This document shows, in pieces, positions 10,691-51,097 of a DNA stretch of 51,229 nucleotides. Positions within the stretch are counted from its first letter, which is position 1; each line of letters begins with the position of its first letter. The translations under genes were made by a program, and so were the position numbers. The notes under the pieces were generated by a model, which was given only the letters and a program-made list of their open reading frames with translations, did no database searches and had not been told where the DNA came from. Location of the stretch: the NCBI GenBank assembly GCA_018814875.1, contig JAHIYH010000045.1:77316-128544 (forward strand). The letters run 5' to 3'. The DNA is from Patescibacteria group bacterium (GTDB taxonomy: Bacteria; Patescibacteriota; Gracilibacteria; Peribacterales; Peribacteraceae).

Positions 10691-13600
10691 ATGGCAGAAG
10701 CTCAAGTTTCAAAAAAGGCGCAAAGAACTCCTCAAGAGAATATGCAGAGATCATCAGTGTCAAAATCTTTTGATTTACTATCTGTGCGGCTTAACGCAGG
10801 GCAGAAGAGAGCAGTAGAAACCATCGAAGGTCCGGTGATGGTTGTGGCTGGTCCGGGAACAGGAAAAACGCATGTACTGGGGATGCGAGTGGCAAATATC
10901 CTCAAGAAAACGCAAATGCGTCCGAGTAATATTTTGTGTCTTACATTCTCGGTTAGTGCAGCTACTCAAATGCGTGAGCGTCTGCGATCGTTTATTGGTC
11001 CTGATGCATATGGAGTGACCGTAAAGAACTTTCATGGTTTCTGTAATGATCTGATTGCTCAGCATCCACTTGTGTTTGATTCTTGGTCTGCGTTGGAACA
11101 GATTAGTGATGTAGAGCGGTATCGAGAGTTGAACACAATAATTGATCAACTTCTTCCAAATTTAGTACTTGTAAACAAGAAAAATCCATATCTGCGTACC
11201 CGTGATATCATTTCACGCATCTCTCAACTCAAGCGTGAAAGTAAGGCAGATCGTAAGGAATTGGAACAAATTGCAGATGAATATGAAGAGAAAATGTCAT
11301 CCAAAAGTAAAGAGGGAACTAAAGCGCACGAGAAGAATGTTCTGCAAGCGCGCAAGTTTAAAGAGTTTATAGAAGTGTTTTTCCGATATCAGGAAATGCT
11401 CAAAAACACAGGTCGTTTTGATTATGAAGATATGATCTTATACGTAATAAAAGCTTTGGAAGAAGAAGATTGGTTACTTGCTGCGCTGCAAGAACGGTAC
11501 CAATACATTTTGGTTGATGAATTTCAGGATACCAATGGTGCACAATACCGATTAATAGAACTATTAACTACTTACTCTTCACTCGATCATGAACCAAACC
11601 TCTTTGTAGTAGGGGATGATGATCAAGCGATCTACAGGTTCCAAGGTGCGAATCTTGCAAACATTCTTTCATTCCATAATCGTTTTCCTAAAGCACCTGT
11701 TGTTACACTTACAGAAAGTTATCGATGTACACAGCCTATCCTCGATGCAGCTGGTTCACTAATAGCCAATAATACAGAACGTCTTGTTGGGCACATCAAA
11801 GAATTGGAGAAAGATCTCACTGCCGCTAAGCAAACAGAAGGAGCAGATCCGCAGCTTCTCTTCTCGCCAAGTGATACTACAGAGCCTTGGATGCTGGCAG
11901 ATCTGGTCGAAGAGCGGCTAAAACAAGGGCTAAAACCAGATGATATTGCAATTCTTGTTCAGACGAACAAAGAGCTTCTTCCGCTTTATGATGTATTTAC
12001 TGCGAGGAATCTACCTGTGCAGATGACAGGAAAAGTGGATTTACTTGCACATCCATTAGTTCAGCAGGCCATTGCAATTTTGAAGGCGGTTGAGTCGCCC
12101 GATAAAAGTGTAAATATGGGAGCTGCGCTTTCTTGTGCGTGTTTTGAATGTCATCCAGCTGATTTGGCTTCGCTTTTCGCAAAGCGTATAGAAGAGAAGA
12201 AGACACTTTCATCACTTCTTTTAGAGATTGATAAAGATGAATCTCTGCGTGACAAGAACACTTTGATAAAAGTACGAGATGTCCTCTTTGATCTTCATAA
12301 CAAGCTTGGTAATAGAACTGTGGTAGACACGTTGCAGCATTTACTGGAAGAAACAGGATTACTTGATCTTGCGAGAGGAAAAAAAGAAGGAACAGAGTTC
12401 GACCCCATTAATTTTGCAGCATTGCAAGAATTCTTTGACCGTTTGAAGATGCGTGCATACGAGCAACCAAGCTTCTCTTTTAAATCATTCTTAAGTGATC
12501 TTGAGTATTATCAACAGCCTGAATACGGTGATCTGCGTCTTAGTTACAGTCTTCCTCATCTTACAGAAAAGGGAGTGCAACTTATGACGGCACATCAAAG
12601 CAAGGGAATGGAATTTGAAACAGTGATACTCGCAAACTTCCGTGATAAGCATTGGGACAAGCGCTTTAACCGTTCAGGACTCTCGGTGCCGGAAGATTTA
12701 CTCTTTGGCTGGGATAAGGATCAAAAATCATTCGAGAAGAATCAAGACGAACGTAGGCTTGCATATGTGGCTATGACAAGGGCTAAACGTGAGCTGATAT
12801 TTACATGTCCAAAGGAGCTCACAACAGGGGATAAGTCACGCGAGGTCTCTCCATCTGCCTTTTTTGCAGAAGCGGGGTCTCTTTTGGAAGAGATGCGCGA
12901 TCTTAAAGATCCAACCAATGTTTCGTTGTTCTTGCACAAGTCTGTACGCAAATTTGATCAGGAGATGGAGGCGTTTCTGCAACAGAGACTCGAGAATTAC
13001 AAACTTTCAGTAACAGCACTCAATCATTTTTTGGAAGATCCGCAAAAGTTCTTGGAAGTGGATTTGCTGCGGGTTCCACAGGCAAAGCAGCCTAGTTTCG
13101 TTTATGGAAATGCAGTACATGATGCGTTAAAGAAGTGGGGACTTTCTGTTCAGCAAGGAAAGCCTTTAGATCAAAAAGGTTTTATGAATGCATTTAATAC
13201 ATATATGGATGAACGTGAACTTCTGACTGACAAAGAGAAGGCGATACTGCTGAAGATTGGTGAAGAAACTCTTCCGCGATACTTCGATCAGAAAATAGCT
13301 CAGGTTTCTCCAATTATCTACAAAGTTGAGTTTGGTATTCAAACGTTCTTCGATGACCCCTCCGATCCCGTCGGGACAAGCGTTCCAATCAAAGGCGCAT
13401 TAGATCGTATCGACTTGTATGCACCGGACTCATCACTTGCTACGGTTATAGATTACAAAACAGGACGACCAAAGACCGAGAAACAAATTCGTGACGACGG
13501 CGATTACTTCCGTCAGCTTGCGTTCTATGCATTGCTATTGGAGCAGAAGAGTCTTCCAATCGAACCACAGGAGTTTGTGCTCGAATTCATTGGAGAGGGG

Positions 13601-35989: not shown

Positions 35990-37516
35990 ATGAAAGTTAT
36001 CGCATACGTTCGTAAGTCTACAGAGCAGGAAGACAGACAAATTTTATCTATTGATGCTCAACTTCGCGAGTTGAGCGATTATGCCGCAAAAGAACAGTTG
36101 GAAATCGTCGCCTCGTTGTGCGAGGCCAAAACCGCAAAAGAGCCCGGGCGAATCGAATTCGCCAGAATGTTGGAAATTGTAGAGAAGGGAGGAGCAGAAG
36201 GCATCCTCGCATGGCACCCTGACAGGCTCGCTAGGAACTCTGTGGATGGAGGGAAGATTATGCACCTTTTGGACACAGGCAAACTTAAAGCACTGAAGTT
36301 CCCGACTTTCTGGTTTGAGCCGACTCCACAAGGAAAGTTCATGCTGAACATTGCCTTTGGTCAGTCCAAGTATTACGTGGACAATCTTGCCGAGAATGTG
36401 AAGCGTGGCATGCGCGAGAAAGTGCGCCGTGGCGAGTGGACGTGGCCTGCTCCGCTTGGTTACATCAATAACCGAGAAAAGCGAAACATTGAGCCTGATT
36501 CAGAGAAGGCACCACTCGTTCGCAAGGCATTTAAACTCTACGCCACAGGAGAGCACACGTTTCTCTCGTTGCGCAATGAACTAACCAGACTCGGACTACT
36601 GACGCGCAAAGACAAGGTGCTGCCAGTGTCCAATGTCCAGAAGATGTTGCAACACCACGTCTACTACGGTGTGATCAGCATGAACGGTGAGCTGTTCCCC
36701 GGCGTATTCGAGCCGATTGTGAGCAAGAGACTGTTCGACGAGGTGCAGGTAATGATGCGAAGCAAGAGCAAACCGAAGAGGAGAAGAAAACATGAGTTTC
36801 CATTTGCCAGTTTTTTACACTGCGCTACTTGCGAATGCGCCATCTCTGCTGAAATTCAGAAGGGGCATCATTACTACCGATGCACTCACAAGCGCGGTCC
36901 GTGTGATCAGCGCAAGTACTTGCGTGAAAAAGGCTTGCTTGAGCAGGTACGTAAAATCGTCGAACAAGTCTCTCTGCCCGATGAATGGGCGGATAACATG
37001 CTGCGAGAACTCGACAAAGAGGAATCATCCGAAAAATCGGATCATCGGGTAACTGCTGCACATCTTGAGGATGAGCGAAAACAGATAGACATACAGCTTG
37101 ATGATCTCCTCGATTTACGATTGGAAGCCGCACTCAATACCGAGGAATATCTTGCAAAGAAAAACAAGCTGGTGTCACGTAAATTAGAGATTGATCAAGA
37201 GATCAAGGACGCTGAACAGAATCATTCTAATTGGCTCGAACCCATGCGAGAGATGATAATGCGCAGTCGTGAAGCCAAAAAATTGCTCTCGACCGAAAAT
37301 CATTCAGAATTTCCAACATTCTTAAAAACGATCGGAACGAACTTTGTTTTGAAAGGGAACGCGGTGCAATGGGAAGCCAAAATAGGATGGCGCGTATTGG
37401 CGAAATCGCGCGGATTTCGCGGATGGTGGGCCGGGAGGGATTCGAACCCCCGAAGTCGGAGACATCTGGTTTACAGCCAGACCCGTTTGACCACTTCGGT
37501 ACCGACCCACAGTTGA
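35990..37516 (+). CDS. Large serine recombinase (integrase/resolvase family)
   Basis: A 508-residue large serine recombinase. The catalytic domain has Ser10 in YVRKST and the DRLARN arginines near 79-82. The recombinase domain follows (YINNREKRNIEPD to ~265), then a zinc ribbon (Cys278, 281, 298 and 305) and a coiled coil (about 340-400). Such enzymes cut attP and attB with a 2-base stagger via Ser-linked DNA. From residue 481 the frame runs through antisense tRNA-Tyr, giving a 28-residue tail that is an integration product. In the reconstructed circular form it would instead end GAFAQIRTDFNTNRRGG, 497 residues in all. The ATG at 35990 follows directly after the inverted attP-like site. Confidence 0.92.
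   Translation: MKVIAYVRKSTEQEDRQILSIDAQLRELSDYAAKEQLEIVASLCEAKTAKEPGRIEFARMLEIVEKGGAEGILAWHPDRLARNSVDGGKIMHLLDTGKLKALKFPTFWFEPTPQGKFMLNIAFGQSKYYVDNLAENVKRGMREKVRRGEWTWPAPLGYINNREKRNIEPDSEKAPLVRKAFKLYATGEHTFLSLRNELTRLGLLTRKDKVLPVSNVQKMLQHHVYYGVISMNGELFPGVFEPIVSKRLFDEVQVMMRSKSKPKRRRKHEFPFASFLHCATCECAISAEIQKGHHYYRCTHKRGPCDQRKYLREKGLLEQVRKIVEQVSLPDEWADNMLRELDKEESSEKSDHRVTAAHLEDERKQIDIQLDDLLDLRLEAALNTEEYLAKKNKLVSRKLEIDQEIKDAEQNHSNWLEPMREMIMRSREAKKLLSTENHSEFPTFLKTIGTNFVLKGNAVQWEAKIGWRVLAKSRGFRGWWAGRDSNPRSRRHLVYSQTRLTTSVPTHS
37351..37430. repeat. Right attachment site (attR) with 80-bp arm
   Basis: The last recombinase codons (GAAAGGGAACGCGGTGCAAT onward) and the core TGGTGGG are a perfect 80-bp inverted copy of 35873-35952. 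The match stops exactly where the sequence enters the tRNA acceptor stem (37431), giving arm B-core-tRNA, the combination expected of attR. Confidence 0.78.
37427..37508 (-). tRNA. tRNA-Tyr (GTA)
   Basis: An 82-base class II tRNA on the minus strand. The acceptor GGGTCGG (37508-37502) pairs with CCGGCCC (37434-37428), the discriminator is A (37427), and CCA is encoded (37426-37424). The anticodon GTA is at 37474-37472 in the loop CTGTAAA. The extra arm is long, as in bacterial tRNA-Tyr, and the T loop is TTCGAAT. All stems look intact. Its 3' end is the recombinase attachment core. Confidence 0.96.
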
Positions 37517-38519: not shown

Positions 38520-38580
38520 ATCAACTACCGCTGGTATTTCCCGAATAAACTCCTGTGCAAGTGTGTATGTATATGCTCCT
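38520..38580 (-). pseudogene. Duplicated fragment of the PLP decarboxylase 3' end
   Basis: On the minus strand this reads YQGAYTYTLAQEFIREIP with no start, nearly identical to the C-terminus of the decarboxylase at 39042-40307. The 54 bases are about 90 percent identical to 39068-39121. The fragment lies downstream of the SET gene, so the SET gene is flanked by two copies of the decarboxylase tail in direct orientation. Confidence 0.8.
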
Positions 38581-38602
38581 TGGTAGTGTAGGTATCGTAT
38601 GT

Positions 38603-38995
38603 CTATTGCCTATTGCCAGTATTTGCATATGTGTATTCTCTTCCATTGAAGATAATTTCTGCATCTTCTCCTCCAGAGTAATCGTATGTGATTTCCTCAT
38701 TGGCTTGGATATCGCGCAATGCTATAAAGATCAGATTTTCACTTTCGTAGTGCTCTTCAATGTATGCATTTGGATCATTACCGTGGTTGTAGAGCATCCC
38801 GAAGCCAAAGACGAGGCAATCGTGGCCTTCTGATCTCCGAAATGTATAACTGTCGATAAGAGTGTTTTTGATAAGATCAACGTCAGCCTGAGAGATTAGT
38901 GTGATAGGACACGTCTCTATAATATCTCCTTTTGTAATTTTAGTATCTGTGAAGACACCTCTGCCCTTTCCTTCAATCGATTTGATTATCAGCAC
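38603..38995 (-). CDS. Small SET-domain protein (putative lysine methyltransferase)
   Basis: A 130-residue minimal SET domain. The motifs are in order: GKGRGVFTDTKITKGDII (SET-N), FGMLYNHGNDPNAYIEE matching the NHxxxPN motif, and DIQANEEITYDYSG matching the GEEITxDY motif that contacts S-adenosylmethionine. Free-standing SET proteins methylate lysines on proteins; here a peptide or cluster product is also possible. It is the last gene of the ATP-grasp cluster, 46 bases after the decarboxylase. The duplicated decarboxylase tail behind it suggests it was inserted. Confidence 0.85.
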   Translation of the reverse strand: MLIIKSIEGKGRGVFTDTKITKGDIIETCPITLISQADVDLIKNTLIDSYTFRRSEGHDCLVFGFGMLYNHGNDPNAYIEEHYESENLIFIALRDIQANEEITYDYSGGEDAEIIFNGREYTYANTGNRQ

Positions 38996-39041
38996 GGTGA
39001 AAATGTAGTGGTTTCTTTTGCAAAGTCAATATGAACTAAAC

Positions 39042-40307
39042 TTATATATCTGACATATTCACCACTATAGGTATCTCCCGGATAAATTCCTGTGCAAGCG
39101 TGTATGTATATGCCCCTTGGTAGGGTAAACAGAGAATGTCGCCTTCCTGCATGTTGGAGCAGTATACATAGTATCCCCAGATGTCGTCTGGAGTGCAGAG
39201 TGATCCGTAGAGAAGGAAGGGAATCTCTTTTTCCACCGAGAAGTTAGTGAGGTTGAACACTGGTGCGTACCAAAAGTTCTGGTACTTCTCCCAGCCAATC
39301 ATGTTATTGCCTCCGTCCAGAATCCCCATATTGTTTGATTTTTTATCTGTGAGCGATAGGAGGATGTGCAATGAATTCTGCGAAATGTATCGTCCAGGTT
39401 CTATGTAAATTTTCACGTTTGGGAGTACAGGACGAATATGATCCTTTATGGCTCCAGCAATAGTTCTTGTAAATTTTTCAATGGGGTTGATTGTCATTGG
39501 GATAAAACGAGGCTGGAATTCATCGTTCATGATTTTCTCCACTGTTCCTTTGGGACATGCAGCCAGTTCCAAATCTGCATTCCATGGATACAGTCCTTCC
39601 CATGTTTGAACAGGGTATATGCCACCGCCGATATCCAAATACTTGAATGCGGCAAGTTCCGCTTGAGAGAAGTTTTTTGAACAATAGTCGTATATATCCT
39701 TAAGAGTTTTTACATAGTTATCTGGATTTATGTTGAAACTTATGTGGAAGTGTATTCCGCAGAAGTCAATTGCAGGATAATTCATTGCTTTGTCATAGAA
39801 TTCTCTCAGTTGGTTGAGTGGAAGACCAAACTTGGTCCAACCAGATTGGCTCTTAGTGATAATACGCAACCCACATCTAATTTTTACTTTTCTTTTTTTT
39901 GCCATTCCGGCAAGTAGTGTAAGTTCACGTTCTGTTTCTAGATTTACAGTAATACGATCGGCGTGATCGAGAATCAGTTCAAAATCACCTTCCTTTTTAG
40001 CCGGACCGGTATAAATTATTTTTTTTGCTCCTGCTTCTAATGCTAGCGTTAGTTCTCTATTGCTAGATGCGTCCAGACCACCACCTTGCTCTACTACTGT
40101 TTTTAGAAGTTGACGACATGGGTTGCTTTTCATAGCAAAGAATACTTCTACAGATTCACCGGCTTCTTTGAACTTGGAAGTGAATTCATCGTAACTTCTG
40201 CAAACCTCCTGAGCATCGTATACGTAGATTGGCGTACCGTGCTTATGTGCTATATCAAGCAGAGGTTGCCTAAGGGTCTTAATACGATTAAAGAGTTCTT
40301 GATTCAT
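39042..40307 (-). CDS. Fold-type III PLP-dependent amino acid decarboxylase
   Basis: A 421-residue relative of diaminopimelate/carboxynorspermidine decarboxylases. Lys60 (FFAMKSNP) should hold PLP. HFHIS (187-190), GGG (227-229) and EPGR (303-306) bind the cofactor phosphate, and Cys371 with Asp374/375 (LCTPDD) supplies the active site from the second subunit. Tyr400 (GAYTYT) is conserved. All catalytic residues are present, so it is likely active. The position between ATP-grasp ligases argues against simple lysine synthesis and for a specialised substrate. Spacing to the upstream gene is 27 bases. Confidence 0.88.
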   Translation of the reverse strand: MNQELFNRIKTLRQPLLDIAHKHGTPIYVYDAQEVCRSYDEFTSKFKEAGESVEVFFAMKSNPCRQLLKTVVEQGGGLDASSNRELTLALEAGAKKIIYTGPAKKEGDFELILDHADRITVNLETERELTLLAGMAKKRKVKIRCGLRIITKSQSGWTKFGLPLNQLREFYDKAMNYPAIDFCGIHFHISFNINPDNYVKTLKDIYDYCSKNFSQAELAAFKYLDIGGGIYPVQTWEGLYPWNADLELAACPKGTVEKIMNDEFQPRFIPMTINPIEKFTRTIAGAIKDHIRPVLPNVKIYIEPGRYISQNSLHILLSLTDKKSNNMGILDGGNNMIGWEKYQNFWYAPVFNLTNFSVEKEIPFLLYGSLCTPDDIWGYYVYCSNMQEGDILCLPYQGAYTYTLAQEFIREIPIVVNMSDI

Positions 40308-40334
40308 GGATGATACTGTACCTGAAAAATGTAG

Positions 40335-41663
40335 TTATTCGAGGCTCGATTCTATTATTTGAGATACAAAGTCTAGTAGAGATTCTCCTTGCGGCATTAG
40401 CGCAGTCTTGCCGGATTGCACGTTTGCAATGGGAAATTCAGTAAGTACTAAGCCAAGGTTTGATGTGGCATCAAGAAGTGTATTTGCTTGAATTGTGTGT
40501 ACGATCAGTATGTCTTCATCTTTTGCGTCAGCAAGTAAAAGTGAGAATGGCTCGTTTCCTTCCCTTTTGTTATATAGTCCAACACCCCATGGATTTTTGA
40601 TCTTGCGGCCTTCAAATCGGCGTCCAAACTGATCAAGATCAAGTACACATCCTTCAAAATCGGTATCTGGAATTGATGGCAAATGAGCTGTAATATCACC
40701 TTCTGTAAAGCATCTTACATACTCTTCCATAAGGTCATACCCGTGCATTAGTTGAGAATGCTGTGCTATCTGGCAAGTGCATAACGACTGACGCGGATTG
40801 CATTCGATTATAAAGGTATTGTCATCTGTTAAGATGCAATCCACGTTTGCCATACCTCTAAATCCGAGAGTACGAATTGCGTCAGCAAGCTGTGATAGAG
40901 ATCGTTCTAGCGTAATGATCGCCTTTGCAGAAATAGTGTTTTTTGGAATCCATTGCGTTCCTATAAAGTACGGAGGGTCATCTGGAGCAGGGATGAATAG
41001 TTGCGAGCGAAGTGCAGAAAACATTGTGTTAGATTCACCAACCAGTATTGTTACGCCAAGCGCTTGCCCCACAATAAAAGCACGATAAAGCAGTGGGAAT
41101 GAAAGCTTCTTTTCGGAGAAGATGTTTTGTAGATGATCCAAAGATTCAATGAAGTACGTCCCAAGCCCACCCCAGCTATCGGGGACTTGCAGTACTCCAG
41201 GGAAGGGGAGTGTATTATCTATATCTTTGTTCGATCTAAGAACACGGCTAGTGGGGACAGAGATGTTGTTATTGTGAAGCACATCATCAAAGAAGATTTT
41301 ATCTTCCAGTTGTTTTTGTAAGTTTGAGTTGGGAGCGATTATTGTAATTCTATTTTTGTGCGACCAGTCTTCTAGGATACTTGATGTAAAACATGATGGA
41401 AGAAATGCTTTCATTCCCTTTTGCACCAATTCATCCGAAATCTCATTAGATGATATTAGTGAATCGTCTGATATTTTTTCAGAATCTGTTACGAGTATCA
41501 TCTGATTTGGTATCAGATTAGCGCTTGCAAACTGCGCATATGGACTGCCTTCTTGTGCAATGCAGCAGTAGCGTTCTCGCATGTTAGAGAGCAGCAAGTC
41601 CAGTGATGTGATGGAGGCGATCATACTCTGTGAGTTTTGCCTACTATTTTCTGAATTATCCAT
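40335..41663 (-). CDS. ATP-grasp ligase
   Basis: A 442-residue carboxylate-amine ligase of the ATP-grasp superfamily (CPSase/BacD-like). The N-terminal pre-ATP-grasp Rossmann region covers residues ~30-115. A glycine-rich ATP loop appears as DSWGGLGTYF (162-171). The metal-binding end is FIIECNPRQS with Glu287, Asn289 and Arg291. The C-terminal ~120 residues are a separate cap. Such enzymes join an acyl phosphate to an amine, making peptide-like bonds. Its start overlaps the stop of the PP-loop gene by 8 bases, so the two are translationally coupled. Confidence 0.85.
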   Translation of the reverse strand: MDNSENSRQNSQSMIASITSLDLLLSNMRERYCCIAQEGSPYAQFASANLIPNQMILVTDSEKISDDSLISSNEISDELVQKGMKAFLPSCFTSSILEDWSHKNRITIIAPNSNLQKQLEDKIFFDDVLHNNNISVPTSRVLRSNKDIDNTLPFPGVLQVPDSWGGLGTYFIESLDHLQNIFSEKKLSFPLLYRAFIVGQALGVTILVGESNTMFSALRSQLFIPAPDDPPYFIGTQWIPKNTISAKAIITLERSLSQLADAIRTLGFRGMANVDCILTDDNTFIIECNPRQSLCTCQIAQHSQLMHGYDLMEEYVRCFTEGDITAHLPSIPDTDFEGCVLDLDQFGRRFEGRKIKNPWGVGLYNKREGNEPFSLLLADAKDEDILIVHTIQANTLLDATSNLGLVLTEFPIANVQSGKTALMPQGESLLDFVSQIIESSLE

Positions 41664-43077
41664 GGATCAATTTTGCTTGTTTAAGCGATGACCTAGCCTT
41701 ATTTTTGAAATCTTCAGTCTCTACTGTAAATATTTTCATTAGTGGTTCACGGAGCGAAGGCGGAAGATTTTTCTCGGGATTAAGTCCAATATATTTATCT
41801 ATCAACTGATCTTCTCTCTCTCGCATGTAAGGTAAGAGATCACTGCGGAATCGCTCTATACTTTCGCCAGAGTGACCTGCACATTCAGCGAGCAGAAAAG
41901 CGGTACCTAACTCATCTTGGGATCCATATATCGGATGTTTTGGGTCATAGCCAAAGAAGTGTTCATAGATTTCTTCGTACTCTTTTCCAAAGAGGTTCTT
42001 GTTAAATCCTGCTTGTTCTGGTGGTATTCCAGCTCCACAACACAGTGCGTACATGTATCCGCATTTTGTGCAGCGCTGGCACCAGCGGTAAGATCGTCCG
42101 TGTTCTGAATCTGCGAAGCATGACATTTGGTATTTACCAACTTCTGGATAGCGGTTGTGTAGAATTGATATGATGGCAAGCTCGTAGAGAGGTTCCATCA
42201 AGCTTATTACTTCAATCTTTCTGCCAAGCAATAGTGTGGCAAGTAACGTTTGTTGTGAAAGCCAGTCGCTGTGCTGATCGTACCCAGCCTTGTATGTTCG
42301 CACTCCTTCGCGGTCATTAAAGATATCGTTGCACGACTGTTCATTTCCAGGGAATGTGTAATGTGCCTGATATGCATAAACGAATGGAAGTGTAAGAAGT
42401 GCGTATTCTGTGGTATGTAAACCCCAGCCAAGTTCTGTTTTAAGTCCCCAGTATGTTCCGTATCTGAAGATTCCAGGGCTGAATTCCACGACGTGCACGG
42501 TAGTGTCAAACTCCTTCTGAAAACGTTCGATTAGCTCTTTTTTATGTTCGTACTCAAAGATGTTAGCTGGCTCTATAAAAAGCACAGGTATGGGCTCTAT
42601 TCCAAGTTCACGGCTTAGGGCAAAGCTTAGCAGGCTCTCCTTACCAAAAGAAAATGGGATAATTGCGCGCGGAGGCTTACTTTCATTTGGCAAGAAATCT
42701 ACTGTCTTGGGCGTTGCAATGTTATTGTCTGCAAACGACCAGTCGGAATTGAAAAAATTCTTCACGTACTCTACGGAAGAAGCTTCGTCTGTAAGAGCGC
42801 AGATTGGCATGTCGTAGATTCCGTTCTTAAATAGAAATGTTTCCGCAATTGGTCTGCTGGTGCGCATCTCGGCTTTCGGGAGGCCAAACATCTGAGGTAG
42901 ATAGAGTGTGGTGCTGTAAGCAAGATTATCACGGAGGATCTCTTTTAGATTCTGCGGATACTGTGACCAGATTTCCTTGGGATATCGGATAGGAAACGAG
43001 TCATCGTTAACTATGATATCTATTCCTTCATCTGTGATTTTTGCATCAATTGTGAGCGATGAGGGGGCGGTATGCAT
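41656..43077 (-). CDS. PP-loop ATPase-like protein with Cys cluster
   Basis: A 473-residue protein. The motif IIPFSFGKESLLSFAL places SFGKES (143-148) where adenine-nucleotide alpha-hydrolases have SGGxDS, suggesting adenylation of a carboxyl or amide. A cluster WCQRCTKCGYMYALCC (Cys333, 336, 339, 346 and 347) probably binds zinc. GWGLHTTEYALL and FPGNEQSCND are further conserved-looking loops. Possible roles are amide synthesis like asparagine synthetase or QueC, or ATP-dependent epimerisation of a dipeptide as in the MurL family; I cannot decide between them. It is the second gene of the cluster. Confidence 0.7.
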   Translation of the reverse strand: MHTAPSSLTIDAKITDEGIDIIVNDDSFPIRYPKEIWSQYPQNLKEILRDNLAYSTTLYLPQMFGLPKAEMRTSRPIAETFLFKNGIYDMPICALTDEASSVEYVKNFFNSDWSFADNNIATPKTVDFLPNESKPPRAIIPFSFGKESLLSFALSRELGIEPIPVLFIEPANIFEYEHKKELIERFQKEFDTTVHVVEFSPGIFRYGTYWGLKTELGWGLHTTEYALLTLPFVYAYQAHYTFPGNEQSCNDIFNDREGVRTYKAGYDQHSDWLSQQTLLATLLLGRKIEVISLMEPLYELAIISILHNRYPEVGKYQMSCFADSEHGRSYRWCQRCTKCGYMYALCCGAGIPPEQAGFNKNLFGKEYEEIYEHFFGYDPKHPIYGSQDELGTAFLLAECAGHSGESIERFRSDLLPYMREREDQLIDKYIGLNPEKNLPPSLREPLMKIFTVETEDFKNKARSSLKQAKLIHG

Positions 43078-43246
43078 GGGTTATAAATTGTAATAAAAAA
43101 GAAAATTCATAATGAGGAGAAGATGATAGTGTTTTCGTTATTAAAAAAATAGTAATTATTATCTTAGTTGTCACTACTATAGATGATGATTTTCAGCGCT
43201 GGAGAATATATCGTCTTGATCTGGTCGTTTCCTCTCAAGGCTACTT

Positions 43247-45586
43247 CTATTGTTTATACCACTCCACGGCGCTCCAGATAATACTTTCAACCAGTTCGCC
43301 GTAGTCATACCCTGCCAGTTTTGCTGCTGCAGTAAGGAAGTCGGTTGGTTCTATGCCGGGGTTAGGGTTGATTTCCAGTACGAAAGGATTGCCATCTCTA
43401 TCTATACGCATTTCTATTTCCGCAAAATCCCTACAGTCAAAAATAGAAAACATATCAAGTGCAATTTCACTTACAAGTTTATTCAGTTTAAGAGGGATCT
43501 TTGCTGGTTTTTCCACACGAATTGTCTTAAGTATGTCTTTGTATTTCTCTGTCATGAGATCTGACGTGTAAATGTGCCAATGCCCCTTTGGCATTTTGTC
43601 GAACACCGATCGTATGAGAGGTAGAACTTCTGCTTCGTCTCCGTTACCAAGGATGCAGGCATCTATTTCATCTCCTTCTATATATTCTTCGATAAGTGCT
43701 GGCTGTTTCATATCCTGTAGAATTGTTTTGAGCCGATTATTAAGTTCACGTTCGTTGGTTACTACAGAGCATGCTGCAATGCCATAGAAATCATCGGCAT
43801 GAGCAGGTTTTATCATTAGCGGAAATTTTAAATTTGGATTTATCTTCTCTCCAATTTTCTCAACAAAATCCCATTCGGGAGTTGGGATGCCGTGATAGTC
43901 CAACATTTTCTTTACATTGATCTTATCCAGTGTCGCTGCGATTGTCGCCGAGCCAGATCCACTGAATGGAAGCTGCAGCATTTCTAGTAATGCAGCAATG
44001 TGCGTGCTTAAGAACGGGGCATTTGGATCAGTTTCGCAAAGGTTGAGCACAAAATTAAAGTTTGCATCCTGTATTTTGCGTATAGGAAGAGGCATCTGAC
44101 TCACATCTACAAGCTCAGTATGGTATCCACGTTCTTCAAGTACATTGCGAACACTTTCTCCTGCCGGAGAATTTGCAAGAATGCCAATGCGCATGCTGCG
44201 CATGTCATCAAGATTAGAAGAGCGCAGCTTTGCGATTCGTGATGCCTCGATGATCTGACTACGTACAAGAGAGGCAGTATCCAGAGAGTGTTCACGGCTG
44301 GTTTTTCCTAATGTGGAGTCTCTACCGAATTTTGTTACGTTAATGTCTATGCCTCGCATGATACGTTCAAGAAGAGTTTCTGCCTGCTGATAGGTTTTTC
44401 CTCGCACTACAACCCAGCCTGCATGGTCAAATCCTTCAGGTGGAACAAGAACGGCATCGCCAACATCTTTAGTCAGATCTAAATGAATCAAGTCCTTATT
44501 TTTCAGTAGCAGTTTGTCTTGCTGAATACTACTCACAATTCCAGAGTGCTTTGGAATGAAGTATCGGCAGATAACACAATCTTTTGGTGGGTTTGGATGT
44601 ATATCAATGCGCATACCGAGTGCAATCTTCAATCCGATTTCTACCATGTCCACTCCCCATACATGTTTCACGTTGTGGTAAATATCATCTCCTCCCATTC
44701 GCGAACCAACTTCTACTATCTTTGGTCCTTGAGGTGTCACCTTTATTTCTATATGAGATAGGCTATCTTGTACACCGAGTGCGATAAGTGCAGATTCTGC
44801 GAGCTTACCTATTTGTTGTGCCGTATTTTCATCAATTCTTGCTGGTGCTATATCTCCATACTCTACGAAGTAGGGCAATTCGATAGGCTGTTTTTCGTTG
44901 ATTCCGATTACATGTGGTATGCCGTATTGAGAGTAACATTCAACACTCACTTCCAATCCATCCATGTATTCCTCATATAGAAATTGACTGTTGTTGTATT
45001 TGAAGATCGGATTAAATTGCTCATTACAGTTTGCGAGCAGATAGCGCATGGTTACTTTTGCTTCTTGTTCGTTCTTTACAAATAATACAAACTCGCTATC
45101 AGATCCCCATGCCGGTTTCATTACAGCAGGAAAGCCAATTGTGTCCATTGCATGTCGCAGGGTCGCAGATGATTTTACAAGAGCAAATTTAGGATTCCCT
45201 AGTCCGGTTTCGGACAAGCGACGACGCATCTCGTACTTGTTGCGTGTGGAGAGAGAAGTATCGTAACTGTTTCCTAGTAATTTAAATTCATCACATATTC
45301 TTCCGAGCAATGGCACATCGTCTTCCCAGAATGTGATAGCTGCATCAAGTTTAAATTCAGGATTTTGTTTCAGAAAATTGTGCAATTTCGTGCATGATTC
45401 GTTGTGGTTGAATGTATCAGCTTCTATGAATGCATCAATGTGTTGCTTACGAAAGTCAGGAGTTGAGTTTAGAAGTACAACCTTAGCACCCAATTTCTTG
45501 GCTTTTTCGATCGTGAAATATTTCTTCTTACCTCCAGTGTTTATAAAAAGAATTGTTTTCCCAGTGATTTGTTCTTTGCTTCGCAT
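43247..45586 (-). CDS. Double ATP-grasp peptide ligase (BacD-like plus Ddl-like)
   Basis: A 779-residue fusion of two ATP-grasp ligases. The first, residues 1-410, has the BacD/L-amino acid ligase look: TILFINTGGKKKYFTIEKAK, FPAVMKPAWGSDSEFV, EVGSRMGGDDIYHN (292-305). The second, from about 465, resembles D-alanine-D-alanine ligase: RIGILANSPAGESVRNVLE, FPLMIKPAHADDFYGIA, EEYIEGDEIDACILG and FVLEINPNPGIEPTDF. Each should form one peptide bond with ATP. No second Ddl or murein gene is beside it, so a dedicated di- or tripeptide product is more likely than cell wall. It is the first gene of the cluster, 169 bases upstream of the PP-loop gene. Confidence 0.87.
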   Translation of the reverse strand: MRSKEQITGKTILFINTGGKKKYFTIEKAKKLGAKVVLLNSTPDFRKQHIDAFIEADTFNHNESCTKLHNFLKQNPEFKLDAAITFWEDDVPLLGRICDEFKLLGNSYDTSLSTRNKYEMRRRLSETGLGNPKFALVKSSATLRHAMDTIGFPAVMKPAWGSDSEFVLFVKNEQEAKVTMRYLLANCNEQFNPIFKYNNSQFLYEEYMDGLEVSVECYSQYGIPHVIGINEKQPIELPYFVEYGDIAPARIDENTAQQIGKLAESALIALGVQDSLSHIEIKVTPQGPKIVEVGSRMGGDDIYHNVKHVWGVDMVEIGLKIALGMRIDIHPNPPKDCVICRYFIPKHSGIVSSIQQDKLLLKNKDLIHLDLTKDVGDAVLVPPEGFDHAGWVVVRGKTYQQAETLLERIMRGIDINVTKFGRDSTLGKTSREHSLDTASLVRSQIIEASRIAKLRSSNLDDMRSMRIGILANSPAGESVRNVLEERGYHTELVDVSQMPLPIRKIQDANFNFVLNLCETDPNAPFLSTHIAALLEMLQLPFSGSGSATIAATLDKINVKKMLDYHGIPTPEWDFVEKIGEKINPNLKFPLMIKPAHADDFYGIAACSVVTNERELNNRLKTILQDMKQPALIEEYIEGDEIDACILGNGDEAEVLPLIRSVFDKMPKGHWHIYTSDLMTEKYKDILKTIRVEKPAKIPLKLNKLVSEIALDMFSIFDCRDFAEIEMRIDRDGNPFVLEINPNPGIEPTDFLTAAAKLAGYDYGELVESIIWSAVEWYKQ

Positions 45587-45838: not shown

Positions 45839-46876
45839 CTATCGCGAATCTGGACGAATCCTCCTTCCCTCGTACCTCCTCAGCTCCAGAATAGTCTGCT
45901 GCCCCAATATTTCCTTAGAAAGGGGATCGTTGTAATCACTGTCATAAACAACGGTTTTAATCCCAGCATTCAAAATCATTTTGGTACAGATCACACATGG
46001 GAAGGTGTTGCAGTAAAGAATGGAGTCTTGAATATTAATCCCAAACTTTGCAGCCTGTGTAATGGCATTTTGTTCAGCATGTGTTCCTCTACAAATCTCA
46101 TGTCGTTGCCCAGAGGGAATCCCCATCTTCTCACGCAGGCATCCTCCCAACTGTGCGCAGTGGGGGACTCCGCGCGGGGCGCCGTTGTATCCTGCTGTTA
46201 GTTGTTGCTTATCTTTTGCAATCACAGCTCCCACTTGTCGCCTGAGGCATGTTGACCTTTTTCCCCATATGTAAGCGATTTCCATAAAGATTTCGTCAAA
46301 AGTAGGACGATCTTCACCTGTTTTAAGCCGCAGGAAATGTTCAAACTTCTTTTCCAGATCTTCCAGTTTTCCATCGTTCAGAATCATAAAGTCACAGAGG
46401 TCTATACACTTGCTTACTTGCTGTCCTTCCGGAGGTTCGCCAACCCCCTTTTCTTTTTCCAGACGTTCCAGAATACTTTCGCGTTTTAAAACTTCTCCAC
46501 CACGTTGACGTTCCATAATGCGTTTTACAATTGTTTCAGTGTCCGCACTTACTCCTACCATTTGATAATCAGAAAGTTTTTCTAGCTCTTTAACTTCGCC
46601 CGGATTACGTACACCATCAATCACCCAATTATTCTCAGGTTCCTTTTCTATGGCTTCACGAACTTTGGCACCCAGTGCTCCGGCTCCTCCTTTGGTTCTC
46701 AGATCATTTCCAATGTTCTGAAGATTTTCACGCGAGTGTTCCATCCCTCTTGCAGTCGCTTCTGCACGTACCATGTCGGATAACGAAATATACTTAAATC
46801 CGCGTTTCTCAAGTAATTTAACAATTTCCCCCTTTCCGCTTCCCATAGTGCCGGTGAGCCCAATGTATTGTGACAT
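45839..46876 (-). CDS. P-loop kinase / dCMP deaminase fusion
   Basis: A 345-residue two-domain protein. Residues 1-185 form a P-loop nucleoside-kinase-like domain with Walker A GTMGSGKG (9-16) and VIDGVRNPGEV (85-95), similar to dephospho-CoA or adenylate kinases. From ~190 follows a dCMP deaminase-like domain: HAEQNA (His266, Glu268) and PCVICTKMI (Cys294, Cys297) bind catalytic zinc, with Cys-rich CAQLGGC as the allosteric/structural region. The usual role is dCMP to dUMP for dTTP supply. The same architecture exists in longer antiphage dCTP deaminases (AvcD), so a defence role is possible but unproven. Confidence 0.88.
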   Translation of the reverse strand: MSQYIGLTGTMGSGKGEIVKLLEKRGFKYISLSDMVRAEATARGMEHSRENLQNIGNDLRTKGGAGALGAKVREAIEKEPENNWVIDGVRNPGEVKELEKLSDYQMVGVSADTETIVKRIMERQRGGEVLKRESILERLEKEKGVGEPPEGQQVSKCIDLCDFMILNDGKLEDLEKKFEHFLRLKTGEDRPTFDEIFMEIAYIWGKRSTCLRRQVGAVIAKDKQQLTAGYNGAPRGVPHCAQLGGCLREKMGIPSGQRHEICRGTHAEQNAITQAAKFGINIQDSILYCNTFPCVICTKMILNAGIKTVVYDSDYNDPLSKEILGQQTILELRRYEGRRIRPDSR

Positions 46877-47266: not shown

Positions 47267-50200
47267 ATGGTTAAAAACAATGCCCTTGCGTTCAAATATT
47301 TCCTTAGCACACTTGTATGTGCTCCTTTACTTGTGGCATCTGTAGCAGTAGCTGCAGCTATTCCTGGTCAGGTTAATTCTAAGTTTTCTTCAAGTGAGAT
47401 GATAATTGATGATATGAATGTTCAATCATCTGTGTCCAGTGTAGTAACGAAGATGAATTTGCAGGCTGTTGTGGTTTCTCCCGCAGTGAATCTTTACTGT
47501 GGTGATGGTACTCCAAGCAATGGTGAACAGTGTGATGATGGTCGTGTATTCCCTACCTGTAGTGCAGATGGGTATCCTATTAATTACCTTGTTGATCCGT
47601 GTTTAACTCCGGTATGCACAGATACAGATGGTGGAAAAGATTTCACCGTAGCCGGAAGAGCATATATTGGTGGCGCAGGACAGAATGATATCTGCAAAGC
47701 AGGCAATATCGGTTATAACCTTATTGAGGGGTATTGTAATGATTCCGGTCAGCCAAGAGGAATGCCATATCTTTGCCCAAATGGTTGCGAGAATGGTGCG
47801 TGTATTCCGGACAGTCCAACCGTAGATAGTAGCGACGATTCTGAGTGTGGCAATGGAGTACTAGAGAATGGCGAAAATTGTGGAGAAGGTGATTTGTCTT
47901 GTGAAGGAAATGAAACGTGTGTTGAATGTACGTGTGTAGAGGAAATTATTCGTTCCTCAGCAACCGAGTGTGGCAATGGACACATAGAAGGAGATGAAGT
48001 TTGTGATGACGGAAACACAGGCAATGATGATGGCTGTGCTTCGAATTGTTTAGAAGTAGAAGAAGGTTGGGAATGTGATGCTATCTGTCCTCTTGCATCT
48101 CAGAATTCTGAAAAGAGTATTGCACAATTCCTTAAGAACATTCTTGCTAGCATATTCCCATTCTTTGTTGCAGATGCATCCGAATCGGAATGTATAAGTT
48201 TCTGTGAGCCGATTTGTGGTGATGAACTTATAAGGGGGGATGAAGGGTGCGATGATGGAGATCTGATAGATGATAATGAGTGTAATAATGACTGTGAAAT
48301 TAATCATTCCTCAGTACCTAAGTGTGGTAACGGAGTTCAGGAAACTGGTGAACAGTGTGATGATGGTAATAGATATAATCAGGATGGATGCAATGTTGAA
48401 TGTCGGACCGATACAGCTCTTCAGCCTCTTACAGGGGTATGTGAACCTTGTTCAGAGTGTGATGAAACATCAGCAGGATGCTATGTGCATACAAATCCGT
48501 ATCTCACTCCGATTGTTCCTAGTCCAGCTTGCAGACAGAATATTTCAACTTACTTACAAAATACTTATCCTTGGTATACATGTAGGAGACCTGGAACATG
48601 TGGTAATGGTAGACTGGAAGGTCAGGAACAATGTGATGATGGAAATTCGAAGGGCGGAGATGGTTGTAGTGTGGGGTGTATGCGTGAACCTTCTTACTAT
48701 TGTCCAAATTGTGAAGGTGTAACGTGTACAGGAGGGCAGGTGTGTACTGTCAGTAATACATCTACGGCGTTTGGAGGAAGTCCAACATGCAGAGATCCTA
48801 ATAATCTAGTAACAGGCGTTGTTACCTGTAGTGCATGTGGTAACGGTAGACCAGATTTAGGTGAAGAATGTGATGATGGAAATACGGTCAATACTGATGC
48901 ATGTACGAACAACTGTACAAATGCAAGATGTGGAGATGGCATAGTACAAAATGGTCAAGAATGGTGTGATGATGGAAATACTGAAGATGGAGATGGCTGC
49001 GGATCTATGTGTCAGGATTGTCCATGTACTCCAGCTTGTACCGGAGATGATGTTTGTTATGTTAGTTTGGCTGGTAGAGATCCGTTCTGTCGTGAATCTA
49101 CACCTACAGGTACAGTGTCGGGCGGATACTGGGATATTTGTAGACCAACATCAACACAAGATTCCATTAGAGTGAAAGTTGTAAAGGTCGCAGTACCTCA
49201 ACTTGATATGGGGCGATACAACTATTCTATTGAGAATACGGGAACCGATACTGTGTATGGCGTATCCCTCTATATTCCTTGGCCAAGTGGTGTAATAGAG
49301 ATGAGTAGCTCGAATGAATGTAGTAGGACTTTGGATAATCAGGGTGTAATTTGTCACAAAAATGGTACGATTTTGCAGTCGGGTGAAAAGAAAACTTCAT
49401 GGGTTCTCTTTATATCTGGTGGCAATACTTGTCCTAAGATTTATTACAACGTGACGGCAGAAGCACGAGTGAATAATAATACGTACCAGAGTAATTCGCT
49501 CAGTGATTGGATGTGGTGCACACAATCTATTCCACAATGTGGAAATAGTAATGTGGAAGAGGGCGAACAGTGTGACGATGGTGATCAAAATTCAGACACG
49601 CAGCCGAATGCTTGTCGCACCGATTGCACCGATCCTATATGTGGAGATAATGTGATAGATACTGAAAGTGGTGAAGAGTGTGACGAAGGAGATACAGAGA
49701 ATGATGACGGATGTGACAGTAATTGCAGAACTGAGCAAACAGATGATGAAAGCTGTTCTGTGTGTGACCAAAGTACGTGTCCGAGTGATAAGGTGTGTTA
49801 TCAATACAAAACGAGTGATTCGATAACGTGTGCTGTATCAGGTCTTCCACTTGTATTTTATACCGAATGTGGTCCAACCGGAGACAATGATGATAGCAAT
49901 GATCCTGAGTGTGGAGATGGAAATAAAGAAGGTGATGAAGAGTGTGACGATGGTGATCAAAATTCAGACACGCAGCCGAATGCTTGTCGCACCGATTGCA
50001 CCGATCCTATATGTGGAGATGATGTGACAGATACTGAGAATGATGAACAGTGTGACAATGGTGATCAAAATTCAGATACACAGCCGAATGCTTGTAGGGT
50101 GGGTTGCAGATATCCCAGTTGTGGAGATAATGTGATAGACACTTCACGTGGTGAGCAGTGTGATGATGGAGCTCGTATCAACGGAGATGGATGTAGTAGT

Positions 50201-51097
50201 AATTGCAGAACGGAGCAGACAACCAGTGGAAGTTGTTCGGTATGTGATCAAAAGACGTGTCAGAGCAATCAGGATTGTTATCAGCGCAAGTCTGACAGAT
50301 ATGCAACATGTGCTAGCCCAGGTTTTTCATTTAGTGATTATACTGACTGTGGTCCAACCGGCGATGGTGACTTTGATGCCTGTGTCGCACAAGGAAACAG
50401 TAATAGTAATTCCAGATGTATTCCGTGCCTGGAAGATCTCTGTATTGATAATACAAACAGTCAAGCGTTGAATGGTTGTATTAACTCATGTAATACAAAT
50501 GAATATGATGTATGTGTTGCGCAAGGAAACGGGAATACAAATCAAAGCTGTCTTCCATGTTTAAAAGATCTCTGTATCAATGGTACTAAAGAACAGGCGT
50601 TAAGTGGCTGTTATCGTGTGTGTAGTACTAATGATGTAAATCGATGTAATACGAGTAGTGATTGCCCGCAGCCGAATTGCAATGAACAGTGCAATATAAC
50701 TTCCGGAACATGCCAACGGATGTGCAATATAGCTGTTTGTAATAATGGAACTTGTGGTCTGGAGGAAAGATCACAAACATGTAATCCATCACAATGCGAT
50801 GAAGGATGTTCATCTTGCAGTGAAATAAGTTGCACGGCTAATTGTGAAATTTGTCCTGATGGTAGTTATGCTTGCAATCAGTGCATAGAAGATGAAAATG
50901 GATGTGGGTCTTGCGTTATAGATTGCGGTAATAATAATGATAATAATAATTGTTCGGCATGTGACAACATAACATGTGAGAGCACTAAGGTTTGCTATCA
51001 ACACAAGACAAGAGGAACAGCATTTTGTTCTGATCCTGGTATTCCAACAACAATCCACAATGAATGTGGTCCAACTGATAATGAAAACAGTGAATAA
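47267..51097 (+). CDS. Giant secreted cysteine-rich DUF4215-repeat protein
   Basis: A 1276-residue exported protein with signal peptide FKYFLSTLVCAPLLVASVAV. About fourteen units of the DUF4215/myxococcal Cys-rich type (CGNGVQETGEQCDDGN, then DGCNVECR) alternate with a second Cys module (SVCDQSTCPSDKVCYQYKT...CGPTGD, seen three times in full). A beta-rich segment at about 625-735 resembles a CARDB/DUF11 adhesive domain. Near the end are two FDACVAQGN...CIPCLEDLC-type repeats. Calcium-binding DGN loops and dozens of disulfides suggest a long rigid surface or adhesion protein. There is no visible C-terminal anchor. One repeat pair is nearly identical at DNA level. Confidence 0.9.
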   Translation: MVKNNALAFKYFLSTLVCAPLLVASVAVAAAIPGQVNSKFSSSEMIIDDMNVQSSVSSVVTKMNLQAVVVSPAVNLYCGDGTPSNGEQCDDGRVFPTCSADGYPINYLVDPCLTPVCTDTDGGKDFTVAGRAYIGGAGQNDICKAGNIGYNLIEGYCNDSGQPRGMPYLCPNGCENGACIPDSPTVDSSDDSECGNGVLENGENCGEGDLSCEGNETCVECTCVEEIIRSSATECGNGHIEGDEVCDDGNTGNDDGCASNCLEVEEGWECDAICPLASQNSEKSIAQFLKNILASIFPFFVADASESECISFCEPICGDELIRGDEGCDDGDLIDDNECNNDCEINHSSVPKCGNGVQETGEQCDDGNRYNQDGCNVECRTDTALQPLTGVCEPCSECDETSAGCYVHTNPYLTPIVPSPACRQNISTYLQNTYPWYTCRRPGTCGNGRLEGQEQCDDGNSKGGDGCSVGCMREPSYYCPNCEGVTCTGGQVCTVSNTSTAFGGSPTCRDPNNLVTGVVTCSACGNGRPDLGEECDDGNTVNTDACTNNCTNARCGDGIVQNGQEWCDDGNTEDGDGCGSMCQDCPCTPACTGDDVCYVSLAGRDPFCRESTPTGTVSGGYWDICRPTSTQDSIRVKVVKVAVPQLDMGRYNYSIENTGTDTVYGVSLYIPWPSGVIEMSSSNECSRTLDNQGVICHKNGTILQSGEKKTSWVLFISGGNTCPKIYYNVTAEARVNNNTYQSNSLSDWMWCTQSIPQCGNSNVEEGEQCDDGDQNSDTQPNACRTDCTDPICGDNVIDTESGEECDEGDTENDDGCDSNCRTEQTDDESCSVCDQSTCPSDKVCYQYKTSDSITCAVSGLPLVFYTECGPTGDNDDSNDPECGDGNKEGDEECDDGDQNSDTQPNACRTDCTDPICGDDVTDTENDEQCDNGDQNSDTQPNACRVGCRYPSCGDNVIDTSRGEQCDDGARINGDGCSSNCRTEQTTSGSCSVCDQKTCQSNQDCYQRKSDRYATCASPGFSFSDYTDCGPTGDGDFDACVAQGNSNSNSRCIPCLEDLCIDNTNSQALNGCINSCNTNEYDVCVAQGNGNTNQSCLPCLKDLCINGTKEQALSGCYRVCSTNDVNRCNTSSDCPQPNCNEQCNITSGTCQRMCNIAVCNNGTCGLEERSQTCNPSQCDEGCSSCSEISCTANCEICPDGSYACNQCIEDENGCGSCVIDCGNNNDNNNCSACDNITCESTKVCYQHKTRGTAFCSDPGIPTTIHNECGPTDNENSE

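Follow-up and report, generated by a model that had tools for sequence, protein, structure and literature searches.

Five genes on the minus strand of a Peribacteria-like CPR genome (approximately 1.42 Mb, 98.8% complete) raise the question of whether they form a genuine pathway and, if so, what such a pathway could produce. In the window, by which is meant the whole stretch of 51,229 nucleotides analysed, they encode a double ATP-grasp ligase (45586-43247, 779 aa), a PP-loop-like protein (43077-41656, 473 aa), a further ATP-grasp ligase (41663-40335, 442 aa), a PLP decarboxylase (40307-39042, 421 aa) and a minimal SET-domain methyltransferase with a GTG start (38995-38603, 130 aa). There is an overlap of 8 bp between genes 2 and 3, and 169, 27 and 46 bp separate the remaining neighbours, in agreement with an earlier note on this DNA which had described five same-strand genes, two of them overlapping. 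The cassette is more than a chance gathering since the same genes are found side by side again in remote CPR lineages, and four of them, encoding the double ATP-grasp ligase, the 473-aa protein, the third ATP-grasp enzyme and the decarboxylase, constitute a real operon.

The ligases and the decarboxylase

Both halves of the 779-aa protein hold ATP-grasp domains above the Pfam cut-offs, accompanied by LAL_C2 (PF13535, 2.5e-24; LAL_C2, 6.1e-10; PF07478, 7.9e-30). The N-terminal half, which includes LAL_C2, is of the L-amino-acid-ligase (LAL) type, the best PDB match of residues 19-324 being the L-amino acid ligase 3vot (E 5e-30), and the C-terminal half is of the D-Ala-D-Ala-ligase (Ddl) type, residues 530-774 matching best the Ddl 3r23 (E 2.4e-22). 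The protein could be aligned over its full length with 12 homologues. Together with one domain in the 442-aa protein, Pfam thus gives the three ATP-grasp domains that had been read from the sequence, and the presence of LAL- and Ddl-type ligases supports in outline the earlier idea that peptides would be assembled here independently of ribosomes, the chemistry being predicted. As a housekeeping Ddl the fusion scores 163.8 bits and does not reach the NCBIfam Ddl subfamily cut-off of 243. It is the sole Ddl-like protein of its own genome, the remaining PF07478 matches being a protein and a long ORF which we take to be PurT-like and carbamoyl phosphate synthase-like, respectively. Most members of the Peribacteria-like family have no PF07478 match at E 1e-10, and therefore the fusion is not the general Ddl of this family.

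The third ATP-grasp enzyme, of 442 aa, is divergent (PF02655, 1.6e-8, above the cut-off) and has weak matches to MfnD (E 4e-4) and CPS. Downstream of it lies a fold-type III decarboxylase of 421 aa (PF02784, 7.3e-32), complete as had been claimed, both halves being matched in Pfam, the C-terminal one weakly. Its PDB matches are LysA (2p3e, 1.6e-22) and BtrK (2j66, 3.5e-20), and K60, EPGR and GSLC-x-P-x-D-x-WG are invariant or nearly so in 10 homologues. With 148.8 bits it does not reach the LysA equivalog cut-off of 297.9, and it carries the motif CTPDD, the BtrK counterpart of which is CTPED. It is the only PF02784 protein of its own genome, in which, at 98.8% completeness, no PF01678 match (DapF) was found, and these two facts place the decarboxylase outside the DAP-to-lysine pathway.

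The third ATP-grasp enzyme and the decarboxylase are strictly paired. All 12 loci with the former also carry the latter; among 24 loci with the fusion, 11 have both, one has the decarboxylase alone, none has the ATP-grasp enzyme alone and 12 have neither (Fisher p 1e-5, uncorrected for relatedness; all p-values given here ignore kinship among loci, three of which belong to one genus, and are inflated by it). The pair is present again in L126, at a contig end. Moreover, close homologues of the third ATP-grasp enzyme (E below 1e-100) occur in five of 380 genomes, each of which has the fusion (p 7e-8, relatedness ignored). PLP decarboxylases require a free alpha-amine and an alpha-carboxyl on one carbon, so that an ordinary alpha-peptide is no substrate. 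This need for a free amino acid, along with the strict pairing, suggests that the decarboxylase makes an amine and that the 442-aa ligase attaches it, and speaks against the decarboxylation of an assembled peptide which the earlier note had proposed. The attachment step is modelled on MfnA-MfnD, to the second of which the 442-aa ligase has only the weak match mentioned above.

The MurL paralogue

The 473-aa protein had no match in a Pfam search. It displays a PP-loop-like SFGKES motif and a SC...C-x2-C-x2-C cluster, and its AlphaFold model (pLDDT 83.8) has the fold of a PP-loop ATPase, which bears out the PP-loop domain with a Cys cluster noticed before. The NCBIfam MurL model NF041275 matches it weakly and below the cut-off (E 3e-4, 19.4 bits); the housekeeping MurL of the same genome reaches 438 bits, likewise under that Xanthomonadales cut-off. 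In hhalign, a profile of 11 cassette copies matched one of 22 housekeeping MurL proteins with a probability of 99.9 (E 1.7e-33, 413 columns) and left a QueC profile, made from three sequences only, unmatched (probability 2.5); the housekeeping MurL profile matched this same three-sequence QueC profile with a probability of 96.2 (E 1.5e-9). The G-K-x-S of the PP-loop and S-C...C-x2-C-x2-C are among the positions invariant between the cassette copies and the MurL of the same genome, even though the identity of the paralogue to MurL is only about 18-26%. On these sequence comparisons the 473-aa protein is a MurL paralogue and epimerase-like. In a tree the paralogues and the housekeeping MurL proteins form separate clades (support 100/100), and five genomes hold both types (the window's own, G004, G040, G283 and G453).

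The closest solved folds to the model are QueC (Z 13.7), QatC (13.4) and Cap9 (11.9), followed by other PP-loop enzymes; the superposition on QueC (2pg3) has an rmsd of 3.4 over 209 aligned residues. A sequence search of solved structures with the paralogue profile found nothing. The fold is thus that of QueC, but the sequence features of QueC (PF06508) are absent: the paralogue has SFGKES and C(x)12CxxCxxC and no Pfam match, and the QueC motifs are SGGxDS and C(x)8CxxCxxC (PMC13329287). MurL was reported in 2018 to be without known domains (PMC5808125), and its chemistry is an AMP-forming, one-way epimerisation (PMC8788868, PMC5808125). The present analysis places it in a QueC-like PP-loop fold, which, as modelled, fits this chemistry and would account for both the release of AMP and the single direction. 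The earlier note had left open whether the PP-loop enzyme amidates or epimerises; kinship with MurL points to the latter, and amidation is less favoured.

The genome of the window keeps a second, true MurL that directly adjoins MurD, away from the cassette. Most members of the Peribacteria-like family have MurL, and the cassette is absent from most; it is accessory, since most relatives lack it, and the cassette MurL copy was found in only three of 96 relatives (the window's own, G004 with 86% identity and G040 with 71%). An ordinary housekeeping role, which the earlier note had named as a possible refutation, was rejected on the grounds of the separate MurL-MurD pair, the missing DapF and the relatives without the cassette. 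In the family at large, as at L024:5846-8459 and in the relatives, MurL is common and PF07478 (E 1e-10) is missing in most members.

Recurrence and variation among CPR bacteria

The search of gene neighbourhoods that the earlier note had set as its own check, with a lack of co-occurrence as refutation, found that homologues do co-occur in distant CPR lineages. A scan of 84,980 species genomes with two short peptide patterns, which gives no basis for absence outside CPR, yielded seven cassette loci, all in CPR (Peribacteraceae, Falkowbacteria, two in Roizmanbacteria, Andersenbacteria and two labelled only Patescibacteria). In a sample of 380 Patescibacteria genomes, 10 had the MurL paralogue and 16 the full double ligase; five of the 10 hold the fusion too (hypergeometric p 1.5e-5, kinship ignored), with both genes in one operon in each of them. 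Of the 12 cassette loci, which come from several CPR lineages, 11 have the two in a shared operon, as neighbours in ten and with two genes between them in L030, and the twelfth locus (G229) has two separate Ddl-like ligases and no fusion. The paralogue also occurs without ligases nearby in four further genomes (L045, L048-L050). Across the loci the junctions are mostly overlaps or gaps below 30 bp; gaps of 123-203 bp were seen only in the window, G004 and L046, and most of the others overlap or are separated by at most 46 bp.

The partners of the fusion change from locus to locus. The window and G004 combine it with the MurL paralogue, the ATP-grasp enzyme and the decarboxylase, to which G040, L027 and L028 add a dipeptide epimerase and a probable DegT-like PLP enzyme. 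Loci L080-L082 have no MurL paralogue and encode the fusion, an extra LAL-like ligase, the ATP-grasp enzyme, a FemAB-like acyltransferase and the decarboxylase; L077 and L125 have the fusion, the ATP-grasp enzyme and the decarboxylase. In L085 and L086 only a FemAB-like gene accompanies the fusion, in L084 a methyltransferase, and in some loci the fusion stands alone. The cassette is therefore a hub ligase with changing partners, and its product varies between loci. The dipeptide epimerase, of the enolase superfamily, was found in five loci (L023, L027-L030) and is a second, independent enzyme for the D-residue in a dipeptide. The DegT-like assignment concerns a recurrent gene of 360-377 codons without match in Pfam or NCBIfam. 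The model of its product is poor (pLDDT 60) but has a likeness to DegT-type aminotransferases (best Z 15.6, rmsd 10), and the product is no more than a probable PLP enzyme.

Several further arrangements were observed. In L046, where the cassette comprises two double ligases as well as a SET gene, a lysine-2,3-aminomutase-like radical SAM gene (10740-11669) lies inside it. Two MurL paralogues stand tail to tail at L045:8967-11820 (G283) with no ligase nearby, and those of L048-L050 (516-555 aa, one genus, no ligases) share a conserved gene setting. A second, divergent family of about 800 aa with Ddl-like matches, of the same class, is encoded at L122:8772-11216, L123:8517-10940, L124:8210-10633 and L076:14657-17056; the L122 gene is close to an apparent elongation factor P.

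The 130-aa protein is a minimal SET domain as had been described (PF00856, 4.3e-15; 56.4 bits against a cut-off of 22.4). The earlier note had made it a core step, which was rejected, since no SET gene exists in the G004 and G040 loci nor in most other cassette loci. Beyond it, a relic of 58 bp on the same strand (38533-38590) is identical to the end of the decarboxylase gene at 52 of 58 positions, and it can be aligned with the sister gene as far as the stop region, beyond the point where its match to the present decarboxylase end stops, which suggests that SET was inserted recently in the window. SET genes lie near MurL paralogues in three further lineages. They are present in 70 of the 380 CPR genomes and in four of the 10 with the paralogue, a genome-wide co-occurrence that is not significant (p 0.09); in all four genomes the distance between the two genes is 94 to 3650 bp, and the chance of three such proximities, the window omitted, is about 5e-7. 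This physical linkage makes it probable that the association is functional, though optional. SET could act on the product itself, on one of the biosynthetic proteins or on a target.

Some neighbours of the cassette can also be mentioned. A large serine recombinase with Resolvase and Recombinase domains (35990-37516, plus strand) lies about 1.1 kb away, and the end of its ORF crosses a tRNA-Tyr gene on the opposite strand (37424-37508, minus), an overlap that may mark an integration site. Upstream of the cassette there is a fusion of a P-loop kinase-like and a dCMP deaminase domain (45839-46876, minus) and, nearby, a probably secreted protein of 1276 aa with repeated CGNGxxExGEQCDDGN units (DUF4215; 47267-51097, plus). 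In the sister genome a SerRS-core-like protein adjoins a PhnP-like metallo-hydrolase (L022:213-2082) at 2.4 kb from the cassette.

A proposed pathway and its place among known systems

With a little more confidence than doubt, we propose that the cassette encodes an accessory, modular, ribosome-independent CPR pathway to a short D-residue peptide with a decarboxylated amine cap; the substrates and the step order are our inference, as are the cap, the target of SET and the role of the pathway in biology. The LAL-like half would join two L-amino acids through an acyl phosphate. The MurL paralogue would then adenylate the C-terminal carboxylate of the peptide and epimerise the alpha-carbon from L to D with release of AMP, in one direction, and the Ddl-like half could extend the peptide from the D-residue. 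The decarboxylase would convert a diamino acid or a similar amino acid into an amine, with which the 442-aa enzyme may cap the free carboxylate, on the pattern of MfnA and MfnD, which handle tyramine in this way when methanofuran is made. SET, which only some loci have, might methylate a lysine-like amine, either on the product itself or on a partner protein. An L,L-peptide from the LAL half, a flip by MurL and an extension by the Ddl half would be the simplest order for the known preferences of these families.

Against the epimerisation step it can be said that the known substrate of MurL is a UDP-MurNAc dipeptide, that the paralogue is a distant one and that the PP-loop relatives QueC and Cap9 form amides. 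The paralogue could be no epimerase but an enzyme that forms amides or amidates in the manner of QueC and Cap9, in an otherwise unchanged pathway. QueC converts a carboxylate into an amide and a nitrile through ATP (PMC13329287), and the closest solved folds are indeed QueC, QatC and Cap9; yet the profiles join the paralogue to MurL and not to QueC, and a second peptide epimerase, with a different fold, is found repeatedly in these operons, so that we consider amidation quite unlikely. In a comparison with known anti-phage defence systems, the PADLOC protein models (2023 release, E 0.01) matched none of the five proteins, although the QatC and Cap9 folds rank high for the paralogue. Most kinds of enzyme in these loci have a murein counterpart (MurL, Ddl, L-Ala-D/L-Glu epimerase, FemAB-like acyltransferase), and this, with the fusion as the sole Ddl-like protein of its own genome and with most family members showing no PF07478 match at E 1e-10, would agree with a cell-wall module that builds or modifies a murein stem or cross-bridge peptide instead of a free small molecule. 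Nevertheless MurL-MurD is kept as a separate pair, most family members do without the cassette and mostly have MurL, which shows that it is not needed for their wall, and neither a LysA-type decarboxylase nor a radical SAM enzyme would be expected in murein synthesis; a wall function appears unlikely.

Far less probable is a salvage of host murein peptides, in which scavenged meso-DAP would be turned into lysine by the decarboxylase and the ligases would handle recycled peptides. LysA is the best match of the decarboxylase, and murein recycling is known to use dipeptide epimerases (PMC5808125), but the score is half the LysA equivalog cut-off, the CTPDD motif is BtrK-like, three ATP-consuming ligases are synthetic in character and no recurring peptidase was seen in the mapped operons. 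A RiPP pathway of the graspetide kind, in which a ribosomal precursor would be modified, deserves hardly any credence: CPR bacteria are known to hold graspetide clusters (PMC8939145), but the ligases belong to the LAL and Ddl types and most junctions, being overlaps or gaps of up to 46 bp, are too tight for a precursor gene. To return to the D-residue peptide pathway, a single product for all loci is difficult to reconcile with the several in which the fusion has no partner, or none other than an acyltransferase or a methyltransferase. A wider reading, which we advance tentatively and with slightly more doubt than belief, is that of a widespread, CPR-centred nonribosomal class in which the fused LAL-Ddl ligase works with interchangeable tailoring enzymes (MurL-type, enolase-type epimerase, decarboxylase-ligase pair, FemAB-like, SET and radical SAM) and yields D-residue peptide amides, which these epibionts may use on their hosts.

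Several known systems come close to the proposed pathway. In the alternative D-Glu pathway of Xanthomonas and others (MurD2-MurL) a ligase likewise adds an L-residue which a MurL-family enzyme flips to D at the cost of ATP; here, in contrast, the MurL relative belongs to a separate clade, stands beside ATP-grasp enzymes and not a Mur ligase, and can share its genome with a true MurL-MurD. LAL-type ATP-grasp enzymes also make the dipeptide in the NRPS-independent routes to anticapsin (BacD), dapdiamide (DdaF) and tabtoxin (TabS), whereas the present operons, found here only in CPR, have a fused LAL-Ddl, a MurL-paralogue epimerase and a decarboxylase-ligase pair. In methanofuran synthesis a decarboxylase-made amine is similarly joined to a carboxylate by an ATP-grasp enzyme, MfnA being of a different decarboxylase family from that of the cassette. 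In the butirosin pathway the BtrK decarboxylase, which has the LysA fold and a CTPxD motif, works with the ATP-grasp ligase BtrJ, and an acyl carrier protein is involved; none was seen in the cassette operon. Finally, TabS and a dipeptide epimerase have been combined in an engineered in vitro route to L-Cys-D-Val (PMC13338154). Genes for such a succession of an ATP-grasp dipeptide and an enolase-superfamily epimerase occur naturally in L023 and L027-L030; the TabS version is man-made.

No described precedent for the gene combination was found in the open-access (open-licence) papers searched, and the operon family is a variant within ATP-grasp peptide biosynthesis that is new as a combination. 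It suggests that the cell-wall chemistry of MurL was recruited a second time, for the tailoring of peptides. The general view being that CPR bacteria synthesise very little for themselves, an operon that is conserved in them but patchy is a pointer to a dedicated small molecule, which might play a part in their life on host cells.
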